Below are positions 23,394 through 40,066 of a stretch of 40,634 bases of DNA, one piece after another (the first letter of the stretch is position 1; every line of letters begins with the position of its first letter). Made by a program: the position numbers and the translations under genes. This DNA comes from a virus: positions 1 to 40,634 of IMG/VR virus record IMGVR_UViG_3300025736_000065, one strand, 5' to 3'. The notes under the pieces are model-generated. The model made no database searches. It was not told the origin of the DNA and saw only the letters and a program-made list of their open reading frames with translations.

Positions 23394-24836
23394 TCATTTA
23401 AACATCTCATATTGTGCCTCTAAGTGCATGGCAGAACCAGCCAAAGAATCTGGAGCGTCATCTTCTTTCTTCGAAGTCTTTAATAATCGGTAAACCTGCT
23501 TCATAAATCGCTCAACATTTGGGTTTGGATTTTCAGGGAAACGGTAGTATAGTTTAATAATACCCGCATAACTAAGTATACGAGCCATTTTGTTAGCCTT
23601 TGACCACTGCCCAAAGAAAGGTGTGTCTGGGTGGTTATCTTCTAGTGTACGCTTAAAAAACGCCCCCGCTGAGTTTGTTTCGACTACTATTTCACCAAAC
23701 CGCCCATGCTCTTTTAGCTTGCTAGCTACCTGACTTAATTGTATTGTTAGGTTTTCTTGGTCAAATATACAGTCTACTAAATACACAAGGTCGCCTATTA
23801 CCCTAAATATAGGCATTGCGAAGTTATCCATTCCTTCATCGGCTGTGTCTATAAAGGAAAACAACCATCCTTGCGGTATTTCTTTTTCGGTTCCGTTTTC
23901 GTTTATTGTTTTGGTTGGTAGGTATTTGTAGAACTTTAACGAACTTCGAGGGAATGCCTTGGCTTCATTGTCGTCAATAGCTTCGCACATGTAATTAGCA
24001 TAGAATATACCCTTTGTCCTTGAGTCAACCAGCATCCTAGCCTTTAGCTTTACAAATGCTTTTTTTGACAAAAGGTCTTCGCATAACATTTCATCTAATT
24101 CAGAATCATAAACTGGCATTGATAATATGTACCATTCATCACCTTCAGTTTCCTGTAGCCTGTATTGTGGATCACGTTCACCCCAAAGTGTAGCGCAAAA
24201 TATTTCCCTTACTTCTTCTTCTTCAGCGGCATTCCTACTAGAAAATGTTCCTGTTAACCAAATCCATAACTTATCCATTGCGGTGTCACTTAACGCCTGA
24301 TCCGCACCCTTAACAATGTCATCCATTATTCTAAGCGTTGCACCCTTGCCAGTAACTAAACCATTTACACCTACTCCCAAATAATTAAAGTGTTGACCCT
24401 GTAGGGCCCATTTCTGTACTGCTGAATCACCTTTCTTTAATTTTGTATTTGGGAATATATCCGAATAAACTATTTGTTCTGGCAGGTTTTTAATGCCCAT
24501 TATGCCGTCACGGGTAAACCTTGAAAAGTCTGTTGCTTGTGAATCTGTATTGGACGCTGTAACTATGCGTTCGTTAACGTTCTTGCCAAGTATCCATTTA
24601 GTAAAATTTACAAGCGTACGGCTCTTACCGTGCTGTGGTGGCATCCTTACCATTAGCTTAGTGAATGCGTCACCGTCTGGCTTTAGTAGTTTTTTGTAGT
24701 AAAATAATTCTAGGATATTACATAGGGTTATTAAATGTTTTCTGTCGGGTTTGTAGAAATCGGGTTCAAGCGTATTGCAGAACTCCCAAAAATTCCTTCT
24801 TGATAATTCTATGTTTAATATTGAATCGAAAATCAT
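23394..24836 (-). CDS. Terminase large subunit (packaging ATPase and nuclease)
   Basis: This 480-aa motor pumps DNA into the prohead and cuts the concatemer. The Walker A loop is PPQHGKS (66-72) and Walker B is LRIMDD (168-173). The C-terminal RNase H-like nuclease shows acidic residues at FSFID (D330), VVETNSAG (E386) and DDAPDSLAG (460-463). It overlaps TerS by 4 nt (ATGA). The stop lies only a few bases from the direct repeats of the late control region. Confidence 0.95.
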   Translation of the reverse strand: MIFDSILNIELSRRNFWEFCNTLEPDFYKPDRKHLITLCNILELFYYKKLLKPDGDAFTKLMVRMPPQHGKSRTLVNFTKWILGKNVNERIVTASNTDSQATDFSRFTRDGIMGIKNLPEQIVYSDIFPNTKLKKGDSAVQKWALQGQHFNYLGVGVNGLVTGKGATLRIMDDIVKGADQALSDTAMDKLWIWLTGTFSSRNAAEEEEVREIFCATLWGERDPQYRLQETEGDEWYILSMPVYDSELDEMLCEDLLSKKAFVKLKARMLVDSRTKGIFYANYMCEAIDDNEAKAFPRSSLKFYKYLPTKTINENGTEKEIPQGWLFSFIDTADEGMDNFAMPIFRVIGDLVYLVDCIFDQENLTIQLSQVASKLKEHGRFGEIVVETNSAGAFFKRTLEDNHPDTPFFGQWSKANKMARILSYAGIIKLYYRFPENPNPNVERFMKQVYRLLKTSKKEDDAPDSLAGSAMHLEAQYEMFK

Positions 24837-25300
24837 TCTGGTTTTTTGCCATACTTTAATTGGTATAGCTCTTCAAATGTTTTGCCCTCCAGTCCTGTGT
24901 TTGGCGACATTGAACCATCTGAACTTTGTACGTCTAATCTTTCACCATATTTTGCAGGCTGCATTTTACCAAGCATCCATTTACGAGAGTCAACCCTTAA
25001 TCTAGCCCGTTGTATTACATCGTGGTTAACAACCTCCCTACCGTCCTCCAGTGTTATCATGTCACCCTCTTGGCTGTCTGAGATGTCAAGTATCTGCTCA
25101 AATATGAAATCTGCTCTATCCTCACGCGCACATGTGTACTGTAAAAGTCTTTGTTTGCTATCCTTCATCCATTTACTAAACGTAGGATTAGACGGCATGT
25201 TCTCATCTCTCAATACAGACCTAAGAGAACGACCACCAGCCACCTCTTTACATATAGTGTTTACTAATTTAGTCTTTTGTTTCTCTGTATAAGATGCCAT
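24833..25300 (-). CDS. Terminase small subunit, Sf6-like
   Basis: The 155-aa protein recognises phage DNA and loads TerL. The N-terminal half is a helix-turn-helix (LVNTICKEVAGGRSLRSVLRDENMPSNPTFSKWM). The C-terminal part holds the typical IQRARLRVDSRKWMLGKMQPAKYGERLDV segment of the Sf6-type small terminase family. It starts at an ATG that shares its A with the upstream stop (TAATG) and ends overlapping TerL. A second, unrelated TerS-like protein lies at 30129-30650. Confidence 0.85.
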   Translation of the reverse strand: MASYTEKQKTKLVNTICKEVAGGRSLRSVLRDENMPSNPTFSKWMKDSKQRLLQYTCAREDRADFIFEQILDISDSQEGDMITLEDGREVVNHDVIQRARLRVDSRKWMLGKMQPAKYGERLDVQSSDGSMSPNTGLEGKTFEELYQLKYGKKPE

Positions 25301-30128: not shown

Positions 30129-30650
30129 CTATCCTTTATTCAATATGTTGCTAATGTCTGGATTTGACACATTGATTATTGGGGTGATCTGTTTGCCGTC
30201 GCTTGTAATATCCTGTTGGTCCTTGTATCCCTGTATTCTACTAACCAACATAGGATTAAGTAAATTCAACAATCCTCCTTGAGTATGATTTATGCGAATT
30301 ATGTCGTCCACATACGTGAAGATTGGAAAAAATTCTTTATACGCTTCGTCCCCTCTATAGTTGCGAAAAGTCCTTGAATCAATCTGTAAATGTTGACATA
30401 GTTCTTCTATCGTATAAGGTGCATCTATTTCTATGTCGATAATTGTTCCGGCTCCTGGTCCTGATTTAATGAATTCCTTTTTAACCCATTGCGGGCGGGG
30501 TTTTTGGAAGTACTCATTACATAAGTCCAAAAAGGCTTGTGTTCCTTCAGGGGTAGATGAAAACAGTTTATCCCTTCCTGATTTGGTACGCATCTTCCAA
30601 CATTGATTTCCTACGTGGTTAGGGTGCTTATCGCCTTTCTTTGCTACCAT
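30129..30650 (-). CDS. Second TerS-like DNA-packaging protein (P22 gp3-like)
   Basis: The 173-aa protein begins with a basic MVAKKGDKHPNHVGNQ. It then has the pattern of P22 gp3-type packaging proteins: a first helix with TQAFLDLCNEYFQ, then YTIEELCQHLQIDSRTFRNYRG (helix-turn-helix), a helix DDIIRINHTQGGLLNLLNP, and the end VSRIQGYKDQQDITSDGKQ that is typical of small terminases from Bacteroidota phages. TerL here already has a TerS partner at 24833-25300 of a different family, so this one is an extra or a relic. It carries its own terminator. An alternative is a non-packaging DNA-binding regulator. Confidence 0.7.
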   Translation of the reverse strand: MVAKKGDKHPNHVGNQCWKMRTKSGRDKLFSSTPEGTQAFLDLCNEYFQKPRPQWVKKEFIKSGPGAGTIIDIEIDAPYTIEELCQHLQIDSRTFRNYRGDEAYKEFFPIFTYVDDIIRINHTQGGLLNLLNPMLVSRIQGYKDQQDITSDGKQITPIINVSNPDISNILNKG

Positions 30651-36575: not shown

Positions 36576-36605
36576 AAAAGGGAGGAAAACTATAACCTCC
36601 CTTTT
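36576..36605 (+). terminator. Intrinsic terminator after the antirepressor
   Basis: AAAAGGGAGG pairs perfectly over 10 bp with CCTCCCTTTT around a 10-nt loop; the T-run is part of the stem. The symmetry would let it act on both strands. It separates the antirepressor operon from the 36639 gene and the RNA region. Confidence 0.75.
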
Positions 36606-36638
36606 AAAAAGAAATTATTAATGTAAATTTATAATAAA

Positions 36639-36875
36639 ATGAAATCAGGTAATATTAAAAAACAAACAGGAAATCCTAAATTAGGATTATTTAAAATGTT
36701 AATGGCTATGTTTATGGTCGGAGGAATGAATGCAGAATCTGCAAATGGCATGGCAACACATCAAGTATTTATGGGTGGCGGCAATCCTGAATTTGTACCA
36801 AGAAAGCACACAGTAATGAACTATGCCCAACAAAACAGGTTGGCTAAAAAACGAAGGATAGCAAAAGTTCATTAA
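36639..36875 (+). CDS. Hypothetical protein, 78 aa, Met- and Gly-rich
   Basis: The 78-aa product has a basic start (MKSGNIKKQTGNPKLG). A short hydrophobic Met-rich stretch (LFKMLMAMFMVGGMNAESANG) and a basic end (AQQNRLAKKRRIAKVH) follow. The hydrophobic stretch could be a signal or membrane segment. It follows a terminator, and an A-rich leader precedes the ATG. Function unknown. Confidence 0.5.
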   Translation: MKSGNIKKQTGNPKLGLFKMLMAMFMVGGMNAESANGMATHQVFMGGGNPEFVPRKHTVMNYAQQNRLAKKRRIAKVH

Positions 36876-37077
36876 AATATTGAAGATTCAATCTGATGAA
36901 GCTAAACAGTAACGAATAAAGTTGGGTTAATGGGTTCTCGAAGCACCTTATGGTTATTTCATAAGCCGAAGTGATAGTTTAGATGGATTAGTAATGAAAT
37001 TAGTGTCATGGTCTTTACAGACAGCCTAATCTAGTTACTCCTTGGCAAGGCAGATTGTTTTTTATAGTTCTATTACC
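36876..37077. other. Non-coding stretch with several hairpins
   Basis: About 200 nt without a gene lead into the RNA region. Local hairpins include CTTATG-GTTATTT-CATAAG, GTCT-TTAC-AGAC and CCTTG-G-CAAGG. TAGATGGATTAG could also pair with CTAATCTA with a bulge. The density of stems suggests a structured transcript continuous with the tRNA-like element and the tmRNA, but no known RNA family could be assigned. Confidence 0.4.
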
Positions 37078-37174
37078 CACCGGAAGCAGTAGGAAAGGAT
37101 AAGTCCCAGGAGAGAAATCACACTGGCAAAATCCTAAACCTATGGGCTAATAAGGTTCAATCCCTTATCCGGTA
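37078..37174 (+). ncRNA. tRNA-like element with T-arm and acceptor but no clear anticodon arm
   Basis: ACCGGA (37079-37084) pairs with TCCGGT (37168-37173), and directly before the latter lies a perfect T-arm, TAAGG-TTCAATC-CCTTA (37151-37167). This is exactly the tRNA 3'-half topology. The interior of about 66 nt does not give a standard D-arm or anticodon arm; TAGGA/TCCTA, GGA-TAAG-TCC and CCAG/CTGG can pair instead. It could be a degenerate tRNA with an insertion, or a domain of the acceptor piece of the permuted tmRNA that begins just downstream. Confidence 0.4.
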
Positions 37175-37196
37175 CGACCTTTTGATGTTATTTGAA

Positions 37197-37494
37197 ATAC
37201 TGTTTGGACGCGGGTTCGAATCCCGCCAGCTCCACATTAAGCTAAAGGATTGATTAGTGATCGCCTTTAGTCGTGCCGATTAGAAATGAGTATAGTTAGG
37301 TTGCTTGTAGCTCCTCTATTAGTATGGGACATGGCGCAATAAACAAAACTATACTTCCGGGGCTGACTGGTTTTTGACAGGCAGGGAAGTAGTATAACGG
37401 AGGGTTAACAGCCATAACAGGCAAAACAGTAAATATTTTCGGTTATGAAGCTAAAGTAGCAGCGTAATTGGAGCCCCCGGAGCGATTCGGGGGT
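37197..37494 (+). ncRNA. ssrA: tmRNA (ssrA), circularly permuted two-piece arrangement
   Basis: tmRNA rescues stalled ribosomes. The 3' part comes first: one P2 strand ATACTGTTT (37197-37205), then GGAC, T-arm GCGGG-TTCGAAT-CCCGC (37210-37226), acceptor strand CAGCTCC and discriminator A at 37234. CCA is not encoded (ACATT follows). A spacer of about 124 nt follows, with stems CTAAAGG/CCTTTAG and AGTATAGTT/AACTATACT. Then comes the 5' part: GGGGCTG (37359-37365), GACTGGTTTTTGACAGG, and P2 strand AAGTAGTAT (37387-37395), which pairs with the upstream strand over 9 bp with two G-U. Next is a possible PK1 pseudoknot (GTTA/TAAC with GCC/GGC), the tag frame and a CCCCCG/CGGGGG hairpin. The upstream end is uncertain. 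Confidence 0.85.
37420..37467 (+). other. tmRNA tag reading frame
   Basis: The open frame after PK1 reads GKTVNIFGYEAKVAA and then TAA. The exact resume codon is uncertain; GTA at 37429, 6 nt past the pseudoknot, would give VNIFGYEAKVAA. The C-terminal VAA agrees with the -LAA/-VAA degrons of bacterial tmRNA tags, which are read by ClpXP-type proteases. Bacteroidota host tags as I know them end in YALAA-like sequences, so this tag differs. Confidence 0.7.
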
Positions 37495-37525
37495 ATGTTT
37501 GAAGTTTATTTAAAACAAAGATATT

Positions 37526-37648
37526 ATGAAACATCCTTATTACAATTCAGAGAAGAAACAAAAATCAGAAAAAGACGCTGAAAATTTAATCAAAGGCTTA
37601 TTAATAGTTTTTGTATTCGTAGTAATCTTAATTATTATTTTCAATTAA
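37526..37648 (+). CDS. Tail-anchored membrane microprotein, 40 aa
   Basis: A 40-codon frame gives MKHPYYNSEKKQKSEKDAEN and then LIKGLLIVFVFVVILIIIFN: a charged first half and one strong membrane helix at the end. The ATG lies about 30 nt after the tmRNA end; TATGTTTG at 37494-37501 could be a -7 promoter box with a poorly spaced -33. A terminator follows its stop at once. Function unknown. Confidence 0.6.
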   Translation: MKHPYYNSEKKQKSEKDAENLIKGLLIVFVFVVILIIIFN

Positions 37649-37656
37649 CTACTATT

Positions 37657-37688
37657 AAGGGTAGGTGTAAGGAGCCTACCCTTTTATT
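37657..37688 (+). terminator. Intrinsic terminator after the microprotein gene
   Basis: AAGGGTAGG pairs perfectly over 9 bp with CCTACCCTT around a 9-nt loop, followed by TTATT. It ends the tmRNA/microprotein unit, and the next leader (ATTAAAAAACTACTACA) begins right after. Confidence 0.75.
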
Positions 37689-37702
37689 AAAAAACTACTA
37701 CA

Positions 37703-37885
37703 ATGGCAGCACCAATTATTAAAAAAGGAAAAATAAAATGGCTTTCAATGTTCTTCTTTGGGGAGTATTCACCAGGCAGCTTTGTTGGCGAACTCGAATT
37801 AAAGAGGTTCAAGAAAATGAAAGAACCCTACTCTGCAATGTTTATGCGGAGCTATAAAAAACTAAAACCAGAAATAATAAACTAA
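37703..37885 (+). CDS. Small basic protein, 60 aa
   Basis: MAAPIIKKGKIKWLSMFFFG starts a 60-aa basic protein rich in Lys, Phe and Met (LELKRFKKMKEPYSAMFMRS, then YKKLKPEIIN). It has the usual A-rich leader and is placed just ahead of the gene for a 78-aa protein and the ATPase. It might be an accessory of the recombination ATPase; no motif. Confidence 0.55.
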   Translation: MAAPIIKKGKIKWLSMFFFGEYSPGSFVGELELKRFKKMKEPYSAMFMRSYKKLKPEIIN

Positions 37886-37893
37886 CAATAATA

Positions 37894-38130
37894 ATGGAAG
37901 ACGATAAAGTAATTAATGAGCAAGCTGATCTCATAAAAGAAACGACCAGTAGAATACTAAAATTCCCTAACGTGAATCAGAATGAGATTATTTCTGCATT
38001 GTTTCAGAATATCCGTAATGACCGGATGGAAACTATCACTAAGTCTGAAAAAGCTATTGAAGCCCTTAAAAACTCGAATTCCGAGCTAATGAAAATGGTA
38101 AGTGTAAATCCACCTTTAAACAACGACTAA
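37894..38130 (+). CDS. Helical protein preceding the ATPase, 78 aa
   Basis: The 78-aa product is nearly all helix (DKVINEQADLIKETTSRILK, NEIISALFQNIRNDRMETIT, KSEKAIEALKNSNSELMKMV). It has a coiled-coil character and ends 1 nt before the ATPase start. It is likely to be a partner subunit of the SbcC-like protein, because the genes are nearly joined. Family unknown. Confidence 0.6.
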   Translation: MEDDKVINEQADLIKETTSRILKFPNVNQNEIISALFQNIRNDRMETITKSEKAIEALKNSNSELMKMVSVNPPLNND

Positions 38131-38131
38131 A

Positions 38132-40066
38132 ATGAATGTAAAATTACAATCACTTAAACTAAGAAACTTTAAGGGTGCTAAAAACCTTGAGGTTAACTTT
38201 TCAGGAATCACTAATATCTATGGCGATAACGCTACGTTCAAAACTACTATCTTCGATGCCTTCACCTGGCTCCTGTTTGGTAAGAATTCTCAGGATAAAA
38301 AAGACTTTGGTATTAAAACCCTTGACTCAAATAATGTTGAGATATCAGACATTGAACACGAAGTTGAGGGAGTTTTATTAGTCGATGGGGAAACAATGGT
38401 ACTTACCCGGACGTTAAAAGAGAAGTGGGTTAAGAAACGAGGTGAGGAAGGTGCTGTATTTACAGGTAACACAACCGATTATACAGTTGATGGTGTGCCA
38501 AAACCTGACAAGGAATACTCAAAAATCATTGGCGAAATTATTAACGAAACAACTTTTAAGCTGATAACATCCCCTCTTTATTTCAATGATGTTCTAAAAT
38601 GGAACGAACGAAGAGACTCGCTTATTAAGATGGCCGGTAGTATTTCTTATGCCGATGTAGCCGCAACAGATAACCGGTTTGCAGAATTGGTTGAGATCAT
38701 CGAAAAGAAATCAATTAAAGGTTATAAGGACCAACTAAACGCTCAGAAACGAAAGGTTAAAGAACAACTTGCCACTATTCAGCCCCGGATTGATGAAAAT
38801 AACAATAATATCACTGAAGGGATTGACGAAACTTTACTTAAAGGTGAATTAGTCAAATTAGAGGTTAAATTGAAGGCTGCTGACAATGACATATTCCAGG
38901 TGGCAGAGCAATTTAAAACGTTAAATAAAGGCTACACTGATAAATTGGATGTAATTTCAGGACTCAAGCGCGACCTCCACAGAGTTAAAAACCAGGTTGA
39001 GTTTGATGAAAACGAGAAAGTTGATAAAGTAAAAAGAGAAAGGGCATCGGCTGACCAAACCGTTAAGTCTAATCAGCAAACCATTGATTTACTTGGAAAG
39101 GAAAATGTACAATATTTAGTTCAGGTTGATTCACTTAATACTGACCTTGACAAGAAACGAAAGGAATATGATACTGAAACTGACAAGGTATTAACAATTG
39201 ATGAATCTAAATTTGTTTGCCCTACTTGTAATCGAGAATTAGAACCTGGTGATATCGAAGAAGAACGCGCAGAAATGCAAAAGAATTTCAATGCTAATCA
39301 AGTTCGAAAAATCAACAACATTAAGGCTGAAGGAATTCGAATGGCTGAAAGGCAAAAAAATATATTGGGTAAAATCGAGGAGAACAAGAAAGAAATTGAA
39401 AGATTATTCCCGTCAGTAGCAGTCGAGCCAGTTGAGAAAGAAGTAATCCCTGAAATTAACATTGACTTACTCTTAGAATCAAATACAGAGTACCAATCTA
39501 TTAAAAAAGAAATTCAAGCTAAGGAGGAATCATTAAAGGTGCCAGAACAGGCTGATAATTCAGCACTTAATGATGTTAGAAAACATATTCAGTTGGAAAT
39601 CAACAATGTTAATAGTAACTTGCAAATAGCAAAAATCAACAAGGATGCAGCAGCAAGAATTCAGGAATTAATGGAGCAAAGAAAAACACTTTCTCAAGAA
39701 CTAGCCAACTCTGAAAAAGATGAATTCCTGATTGAGCAATTCAATAAAGCCTACATGGAATTAGTAGAATCTAAAATAGCTTCAATGTTCACAACTGTAA
39801 AATTCAGGATGTTTAAGAAGCTCGTCAATGGAGGTGAGGAAGAAGATTGCACTTTATTATACAATGGTGTCCCTTGGAGTGATCTAAACCACGCCCGGAC
39901 CATTCAGGCAGGTATTGATTGTATTAATGCGATATCAAAACACTTCAATACTGAAGCTCCTATCTGGATTGACAACGCCGAGGCGGTTACCTCTATTCCA
40001 AAAACTAAATCACAGGTTATTAACCTTTATGTATCAGCAAAAGACAAAACTTTAAGAATTGAATAA
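38132..40066 (+). CDS. Rad50/SbcC-like SMC-type ATPase, 644 aa
   Basis: It has ATPase halves at both ends and a long coiled coil between. The N-terminus LRNFKGAKNLEVNF leads to the P-loop region GDNATFKTT (31-39), where the usual Gly before the Lys is Phe. Coils run about 200-360 and 375-560, split by a zinc hook CPTC (363-366). The C-terminus has a signature-like LNHARTIQAGIDCINA and a Walker B-like IWIDNAE (611-617). It may process DNA ends with a nuclease partner outside the window. Related ATPases are common in phages and often accompany recombination genes. The altered P-loop is odd and may affect ATP binding. Confidence 0.85.
   Translation: MNVKLQSLKLRNFKGAKNLEVNFSGITNIYGDNATFKTTIFDAFTWLLFGKNSQDKKDFGIKTLDSNNVEISDIEHEVEGVLLVDGETMVLTRTLKEKWVKKRGEEGAVFTGNTTDYTVDGVPKPDKEYSKIIGEIINETTFKLITSPLYFNDVLKWNERRDSLIKMAGSISYADVAATDNRFAELVEIIEKKSIKGYKDQLNAQKRKVKEQLATIQPRIDENNNNITEGIDETLLKGELVKLEVKLKAADNDIFQVAEQFKTLNKGYTDKLDVISGLKRDLHRVKNQVEFDENEKVDKVKRERASADQTVKSNQQTIDLLGKENVQYLVQVDSLNTDLDKKRKEYDTETDKVLTIDESKFVCPTCNRELEPGDIEEERAEMQKNFNANQVRKINNIKAEGIRMAERQKNILGKIEENKKEIERLFPSVAVEPVEKEVIPEINIDLLLESNTEYQSIKKEIQAKEESLKVPEQADNSALNDVRKHIQLEINNVNSNLQIAKINKDAAARIQELMEQRKTLSQELANSEKDEFLIEQFNKAYMELVESKIASMFTTVKFRMFKKLVNGGEEEDCTLLYNGVPWSDLNHARTIQAGIDCINAISKHFNTEAPIWIDNAEAVTSIPKTKSQVINLYVSAKDKTLRIE

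Follow-up and report, generated by a model that had tools for sequence, protein, structure and literature searches.

The window (the whole 40,634-nucleotide stretch of viral DNA analyzed here) carries a circularly permuted gene for tmRNA, which frees stalled ribosomes; the features of this gene are collected in Table 1. ARAGORN, run on the window, called a permuted tmRNA at 37145–37558 with the tag GKTVNIFGYEAKVAA. The suggested comparison with tmRNA models gave a match of 37176–37467 to the Rfam model tmRNA_permuted (RF04321, a merger of the alphaproteobacterial RF01849, betaproteobacterial RF01850 and cyanobacterial RF01851 models) at 73.2 bits (E 2.5e-12, cut-off 47). An earlier reading of the sequence alone had placed the 3' half upstream of the 5' half, and ARAGORN, RF04321, a structural detector and the sequence itself all returned this order: acceptor piece, intervening sequence, coding piece, which is the order of RF04321. 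The detector also set the piece ends at 37234 and 37359, as claimed, and the spacer, put at about 124 nt, is 124 nt long (37235–37358). The acceptor strands, said to pair over 7 bp with one G-U, form P1 with 7/7 pairs, including G3-U70, the alanine identity pair. The acceptor piece has no encoded CCA tail, and CAT directly follows A 37234. The tag frame predicted for the 5' half is open in the ARAGORN call, with GGC as resume codon 61 nt from G1, and GKTVNIFGYEAKVAA ends in a protease-type tail. In the window, the hairpin after the tag occupies the site of the further pseudoknots of longer tmRNAs; several relatives also have a hairpin plus a T-run there, and crAss-like and other members have extra sequence that by eye could form a pseudoknot. 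The locus is represented by one sequence only, since L122/G001, a contig of 54 kb with 99.995% identity to the window over 20 kb, is the same virus.

Table 1. Features of the permuted tmRNA gene in the window and the basis on which each was placed.
Feature	Position	Strand	Basis
Acceptor (3') piece (5' end is the start of the model match)	37176–37234	+	RF04321 match start, structural detector, sequence
P2 3' strand, CTGTTT, adjoining GGAC	37200–37205	+	by eye
GGAC	37206–37209	+	sequence
T-arm	37210–37226	+	structural detector
Acceptor strand, CAGCTCC	37227–37233	+	sequence, structural detector
Discriminator A	37234	+	sequence
Intervening sequence, 124 nt	37235–37358	+	structural detector, fold
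Hairpin CTAAAGG-ATTGATTAGTGATCG-CCTTTAG in the intervening sequence	37242–37270	+	pattern search, covariation
Second hairpin (37288–37297 pairs with 37348–37357), ending just before the coding piece	37288–37357	+	fold, window only
Coding (5') piece	37359–37467	+	ARAGORN, RF04321, structural detector, cofold
P1 5' strand, GGGGCTG	37359–37365	+	sequence
D-loop with TTTGAC	within 37359–37467	+	sequence
P2 5' strand, AGGCAG	37379–37384	+	by eye
Tag reading frame GKTVNIFGYEAKVAA*, resume codon GGC at 37420	37420–37467	+	ARAGORN
Hairpin CCCCCG-GAGCGATT-CGGGGG directly after the tag, terminator-like by eye	37474–37493	+	sequence

The P2 pairing claimed across the permutation does form, although its exact register is not fixed. 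The strands chosen by eye make six pairs, two of them G-U, whereas the minimum-energy cofold pairs GACAG with CTGTT, shifted by three, and adds 18 further pairs, nine of which join CGGAGGGTT to GACCTTTTG. Cofolding of the two pieces gained −19.9 kcal/mol, compared to a mean of −9.5 kcal/mol for mononucleotide shuffles, 7 of 500 of which did equally well or better. A detector that uses structure only matched the window once and 400 dinucleotide-preserving shuffles not at all, which rules out a chance origin of the permuted structure. The PK1-like pseudoknot of the sequence-only reading was not confirmed: in the 61 nt from G1 to the resume codon the cofold places only a 3-bp GCC/GGC hairpin, and PK1 is absent from the cofold and the consensus fold, both of which are blind to pseudoknots. 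A linear tmRNA that uses one of the halves, named in that reading as a possible refutation, was ruled out within the stretches searched, where no partner half lies in linear order. On the + strand, GGGGCTG is unique; each of the five T-loops located from 37365 to 38400 gives 2 or 3 of the 7 pairs with the 5' half, and 36600–37190 holds no 5' half with at least six pairs.

Among the separate Rfam models, RF01850 reached 42 bits, below its cut-off of 84. RF00023 (standard tmRNA), RF01849 (cut-off 50) and RF01851 were not listed for the window, in a listing that hides clan members scoring lower than the 42 bits of RF01850; this puts RF01849 below its cut-off. At E ≤ 1, nothing but tmRNA matched in the window, which also rules out a glutamine riboswitch like that of Melnitz. 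A RAGATH-like RNA at 36900–37175 was considered and rejected, as the fold was no better than that of shuffled sequences (z 0.37; 123 of 200 at least as good); the same region had no convincing similarity to the comparison loci (best E 0.28). Just upstream of the tmRNA, 37079–37173 can adopt a tRNA-like or tmRNA-like fold, in which ACCGG/CCGGT close a long stem-loop with a T-arm of ATAAGG TTCAATC CCTTAT. No relative of this fold was found, and the fold of the wider region is no better than chance.

Relatives were collected from viral contigs by scans for the T-arm plus acceptor strand (at least 120 stretches), the coding piece (27 stretches) and the intervening-sequence hairpin (16 stretches), and from phage records by blastn (24 records, 19 taken), plus genome loci. 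After removal of 7 tRNA-type false positives, 10 copies and near-identical sequences, 97 detector matches left 73 distinct permuted tmRNAs. At least 36 of them, the window included, form a compact class with a Gly resume codon 52–64 nt after G1 and thus little room for PK1; L083 and L113 were excluded by hand because of doubtful tag calls, and L192 and L194 have the intervening-sequence hairpin, with a Gly tag that is not clear. Another 25 are classical, with a well-called Ala resume codon at 79–108 nt (22) or 61–67 nt (three), and 12 were left unclassed, two of which (L034 and L110) resume at Gly after 83 and 81 nt. Compact members were found in viral contigs, crAss-like phages, a Chryseobacterium phage isolate and one phage-like region of a Bacteroidota genome. 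Their tags vary in sequence, and most end in AA, or in AVA or VA: examples are GKVINLFNSEAKVAA (L195), GKTIKLFDNEPKMAA (L183), GKTINLFREVAIAA (L152), GKVVQM...LRAVA (one group), GNTSYVTDYTRLVA (crAss-like phages), GNVIDINKYVAKLEVAA (Chryseobacterium phage MA9V-3) and GEHVEMAMAA (other viral contigs). The tmRNA type is the same in four loci (L076, L144, L145 and L162), whose tags vary at a single residue (GKTINVNFAPAQ[FVI]RAAA) and whose intervening sequences measure 138 or 56 nt.

Compensatory changes, proposed as a check, were present in both P1 and P2 across the 28 members with less than 90% identity. P1 was paired in 196/196 cells (detection having required at least 6/7 P1 pairs); positions 5–7 occur in seven combinations, and all three pair in every one of the 28 members, compared to a mean of 7.8 and a maximum of 15 in 2000 shuffles of the partners. 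G3-U70 is likewise present in 28/28. For P2, 159 of 196 cells were paired, against 115.5 ± 5.4 (maximum 135) with shuffled partners; lacking the usual bulge, the window pairs in only some of the consensus P2 columns. All of these figures lend support but are not exact, given the detection threshold, the choice of the P2 columns by RNAalifold on the same alignment, and a partner shuffling that ignores relatedness.

Among other records with a related capsid gene, 0/11 matched RF04321 (several are short, and one is a piece of the same virus), which indicates that the gene is accessory. A TerL search of bacterial genome contigs found no relative, and a search with the MCP matched no phage record. 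A decaying gene fragment or functionless passenger would suit the missing match in these relatives with similar capsids, but the conserved parts and the tag are intact, P1 and P2 have changed in compensation, and the type recurs in many phage contigs, so that we consider decay very improbable.

The first hairpin of the intervening sequence has the same loop, ATTGATTnnTGATCG, in the permuted tmRNAs of the window, L073, L182, L183, L187, L188 and L190–L196, an invariance to which the search pattern itself contributed. No such bias affects the outer stem: seven distinct stems paired in 32 of 35 cells, compared to a mean of 20.5 and a maximum of 31 in 2000 partner shuffles. The pattern matched 16 viral stretches; 13, one of which is the same virus, fall within the intervening sequences of permuted tmRNAs, and three lie elsewhere. 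In bacterial genomes it matched 33 stretches, none with an acceptor piece within 300 nt upstream; with about 30 matches expected by our arithmetic, a bacterial home for the hairpin was ruled out. In 9 of 11 distinct members, the window not among them, the hairpin lies 3–10 nt before the coding piece, a position that suggests a processing or binding signal. Rfam had no match for it in the window (E ≤ 1), and most compact members found by other routes are without it.

In the permuted tmRNAs of five crAss-like phages (L176, cr4_1; L178, cr118_1; L180, cr55_1; L181, cr1_1; L175, cr6_1), the T-loop is interrupted by 705–874 nt, and a search requiring 5/5 T-stem pairs and 7/7 P1 pairs returned a single 3' end for each locus. 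The Rfam group I intron model passed in three of the four inserts scanned, those of L176, L178 and L180 (scores of 74.9, 76.0 and 58.7 bits); there was no match in cr6_1, and cr1_1 lay outside the scan. Pfam identified HNH genes inside the same three inserts, and those of cr6_1 and cr1_1 carry an endonuclease annotation. A T-loop insert within a permuted tmRNA, and with it a permuted-plus-intron form of the gene, seems to be new. In L173 (cr56_1), L174 (cr113_1), L177 (cr109_1) and L198, the T-loop reads TATCGTAT and the T-arm is otherwise paired. The intervening sequence is 601 nt long in L173, L174 and L198, and 150 nt in L177, which lies at the end of its record; an endonuclease gene annotated on the opposite strand covers most of it in L173 and L174. 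In cr114_1, the intervening sequence of the permuted tmRNA contains a tRNA-His(gtg) gene (L124 1553–1625). RAGATH RNAs (RAGATH-9, -20, -22 and -7-assoc) are found ≈7–650 nt upstream of permuted tmRNAs in crAss-like phages and fecal contigs (L124, L173, L175, L180, L198 and L199).

The host of the window phage was approached through its gene starts. None of its 35 genes has an SD-like motif, and the 20 nt before the starts contain 54% A, compared to 31% window-wide, a pattern that we take to be a Bacteroidota habit, the window being the sole phage run. Several predicted signal peptides end before Q in the translations, which is presumably typical of Bacteroidota as well. Protein similarity gave a mixed picture: the SbcC-like protein matches Cellulophaga phages but also Aeribacillus and Bacillus phages, a structural protein has weak matches to a Tenacibaculum phage and a Rhodobacteraceae phage, and the best matches of TerL and the RecT-like protein are phages of Firmicutes. 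TAnnTTTG is a Bacteroidota promoter element. It occurs within 200 nt upstream of 10 of 28 compact members (3.0 expected) and 2 of 25 classical members (3.0 expected), and is absent from the corresponding 200 nt of the window.

Hosts were surveyed with the same models. RF04321 exceeded its cut-off in 1 of 395 Bacteroidota genomes, a count based on five candidates per genome under strict filters that weak matches may escape, and in 0/3 further genomes, one of which reached 31.6 bits. RF00023 was above its cut-off in 141 of 148 sampled Bacteroidota genomes. As far as sampled, the permutation thus belongs to the phages, and the hosts keep the standard gene. The single positive genome, G253, has a compact permuted tmRNA with the tag GKVIQMNNAPVRLAA on a 1.6 Mb contig, near phage-type replication genes and with PHROGs matches for 5 of 10 neighboring proteins; a standard tmRNA with the tag GEDNYALAA (160.3 bits) and a single SmpB gene are also present. 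G253 was the only bacterial genome searched for SmpB (PF01668) alongside 18 virus records, where there were no matches (0/18; these include fragments, the two contigs of the window virus, and L154, which has no confirmed tmRNA). With RF04321, the P1/P2 covariation and the gene starts together, the claim of a permuted tmRNA gene in a Bacteroidota phage is supported, Bacteroidota being the likeliest host; phage-borne permuted forms as such have already been described (PMC9004378).

The D-loop and the resume codon bear on where the compact class came from. TTTGA (T before GA) is present in the D-loop of 35 of 36 compact members, a count biased by L142–L166, which came from a search pattern with TTGACA; the signature holds in 9/9 members from the T-arm/acceptor scan and in 23 of the 24 non-redundant members that did not come from the patterned scan, both sets being free of that bias. 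It is found in 0/25 classical phage permuted tmRNAs and 22/48 Bacteroidota standard tmRNAs, and ARAGORN assigned a Gly resume codon to 27 of 49 of the latter (9 + 40 from two samplings; L296 is missing from the signature count). The three alphaproteobacterial permuted tmRNAs compared resume at Ala (ANDN...), have TCGA and differ in the T-arm. The D-loop signature and the Gly codon therefore favor a Bacteroidota-type ancestor, which may mean that permutation arose once more. In its full form, this proposal derives the compact Gly-resume class from a rearranged one-piece tmRNA of Bacteroidota type, as a phage-borne permuted lineage with an origin independent of the alpha, beta and cyano ones. 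The lineage would have lost PK1 and, on the branch of the window, also the later pseudoknots; part of it has the conserved intervening hairpin, and in some crAss-like phages it would have taken in a group I intron. We regard this proposal as an even bet.

If the gene was captured from permuted bacteria of the alpha, beta or cyano lineage and adapted later, no separate origin would be needed. Such a capture would fit the 42 bits of the beta model, and a FastTree tree of the tRNA-like part, built on a short alignment and poorly resolved, places the window among the classical-type phage tmRNAs. Moreover, L034 and L110 lie outside both classes and resume at Gly, so that Gly is not confined to the compact class. 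The D-loop counts, the Gly codons of the Bacteroidota standard genes and the Ala codon of the alphaproteobacterial permuted genes speak against it, with a bacterial comparison that covers alpha only, and we treat capture as a possible but doubtful history. Mean identity of the tRNA-like part, where alphaproteobacterial comparators are missing, did not separate the sources; our reading of the origin makes no use of it or of the tree.

Taken together, the locus is probably (we estimate about 85%) a working circularly permuted tmRNA gene of a Bacteroidota-infecting phage that adds rescue capacity. At the level of sequence, this reading draws on the gene order, the covarying P1 and P2, the AlaRS identity pair, the open tag, the host-type gene starts and the absence of an SmpB match in either contig of the window virus; transcription, cutting, charging, tagging and benefit are predicted steps. 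A single transcript would comprise the acceptor piece, the intervening sequence and the coding piece. Host tRNA-processing enzymes, presumably RNase P and those of 3' tRNA processing, would excise the intervening sequence, CCA would be added to the acceptor piece, and the two mature RNA pieces would be held together through P1 and P2. The host AlaRS could then charge the tmRNA, G3-U70 being present, and the host SmpB would bring it to stalled ribosomes. The ribosome would restart at GGC and append GKTVNIFGYEAKVAA, whose -AA end should still flag the product for host proteases. If mRNA is cut and ribosomes stall during infection, the phage tmRNA would add to the rescue capacity; extra capacity, or different tags, is our best guess at the benefit.

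PK1 and PK2–4 help function in well-studied tmRNAs. The compact form is cramped for PK1 and has a hairpin in place of PK2–4, and the tag ends in KVAA, compared to the usual ALAA or AMAA in the hosts examined; these features count against a working gene. The main rival to extra rescue capacity is a decoy role, in which a charged, SmpB-binding RNA mainly competes with the host tmRNA and thereby keeps phage proteins free of the normal tag or shifts the targets of degradation. The short mRNA-like part and the tag end unlike those of the hosts would agree with this, and there is a precedent in phage DS6A, which, according to PMC4131195 and PMC11915505, makes a TLD-only tmRNA, a type of molecule that inhibits the endogenous tmRNA. 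Diverse compact members nevertheless keep the tag open, with a protease-type C-terminus that would be superfluous in a pure decoy, and a decoy role appears unlikely.

Phage-borne permuted tmRNA is already known, mostly from marine or aquatic sources: the main text of PMC9004378 reports 133 unique phage tmRNA structures, 53 of them two-piece; marine or aquatic samples account for 50 of these 53, and in its tree the phage two-piece tmRNAs fall with lineages of alphaproteobacteria, gammaproteobacteria and cyanobacteria. Melnitz-like and other marine phages described there resemble the window phage in carrying a permuted tmRNA; that main text, supplementary table aside, has no mention of bacteroid, flavobact, cellulophaga or crass. 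In the text of the 2025 tmRNA database paper (PMC11915505), permuted tmRNA is ascribed to three main bacterial clades and organelles, and standard, intron and permuted tmRNAs are separate forms, with a combined form not among them. Among the open-licence PMC papers listed, supplementary tables aside, none dealt with permuted tmRNA in phages of Bacteroidota or with a permuted tmRNA that carries an intron. What seems new is the lineage, the conserved intervening-sequence hairpin, and the T-loop insert of five crAss-like phages, which in three of them is a group I intron.

The window shares with RF04321 the acceptor piece, intervening sequence, coding piece, P1 with G3-U70, T-arm, P2 and tag. It differs in reaching only half of the beta cut-off, in a Gly resume codon only 61 nt from G1, and in having TTTGAC, no PK1 seen and a hairpin directly after the tag. 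With the Bacteroidota standard tmRNAs it shares the TTTGAC signature (22/48) and the Gly resume codon (27/49); those, however, are one-piece, with the tag at about 93–102 in 48 of 49 by ARAGORN (one odd call at 130). The crAss-like phages (e.g. cr114_1) and Chryseobacterium phage MA9V-3 have tmRNAs of the same compact permuted type, annotated in GenBank as transfer-messenger RNA, SsrA, and not as permuted among the matches listed. Unlike the window tmRNA, some crAss-like ones enclose a tRNA, an endonuclease gene or a T-loop insert. The compact permuted class of Bacteroidota phages, gut crAss-like phages included, would be a natural small tmRNA and a source of naturally occurring forms that have hardly any PK1 or none. 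With this class, the number of permutation events becomes testable, as does the question why phages carry ribosome rescue, the G253 host already having a standard tmRNA and the only SmpB.

Two further features of the window were noted. Direct repeats at the contig end (40403–40634) and at the start of L244 may be deduced from blast matches staggered by ≈15 bases. The window also encodes two distinct terminase small subunit families, phrog_1482 (24833–25300) and phrog_606 (30129–30650).
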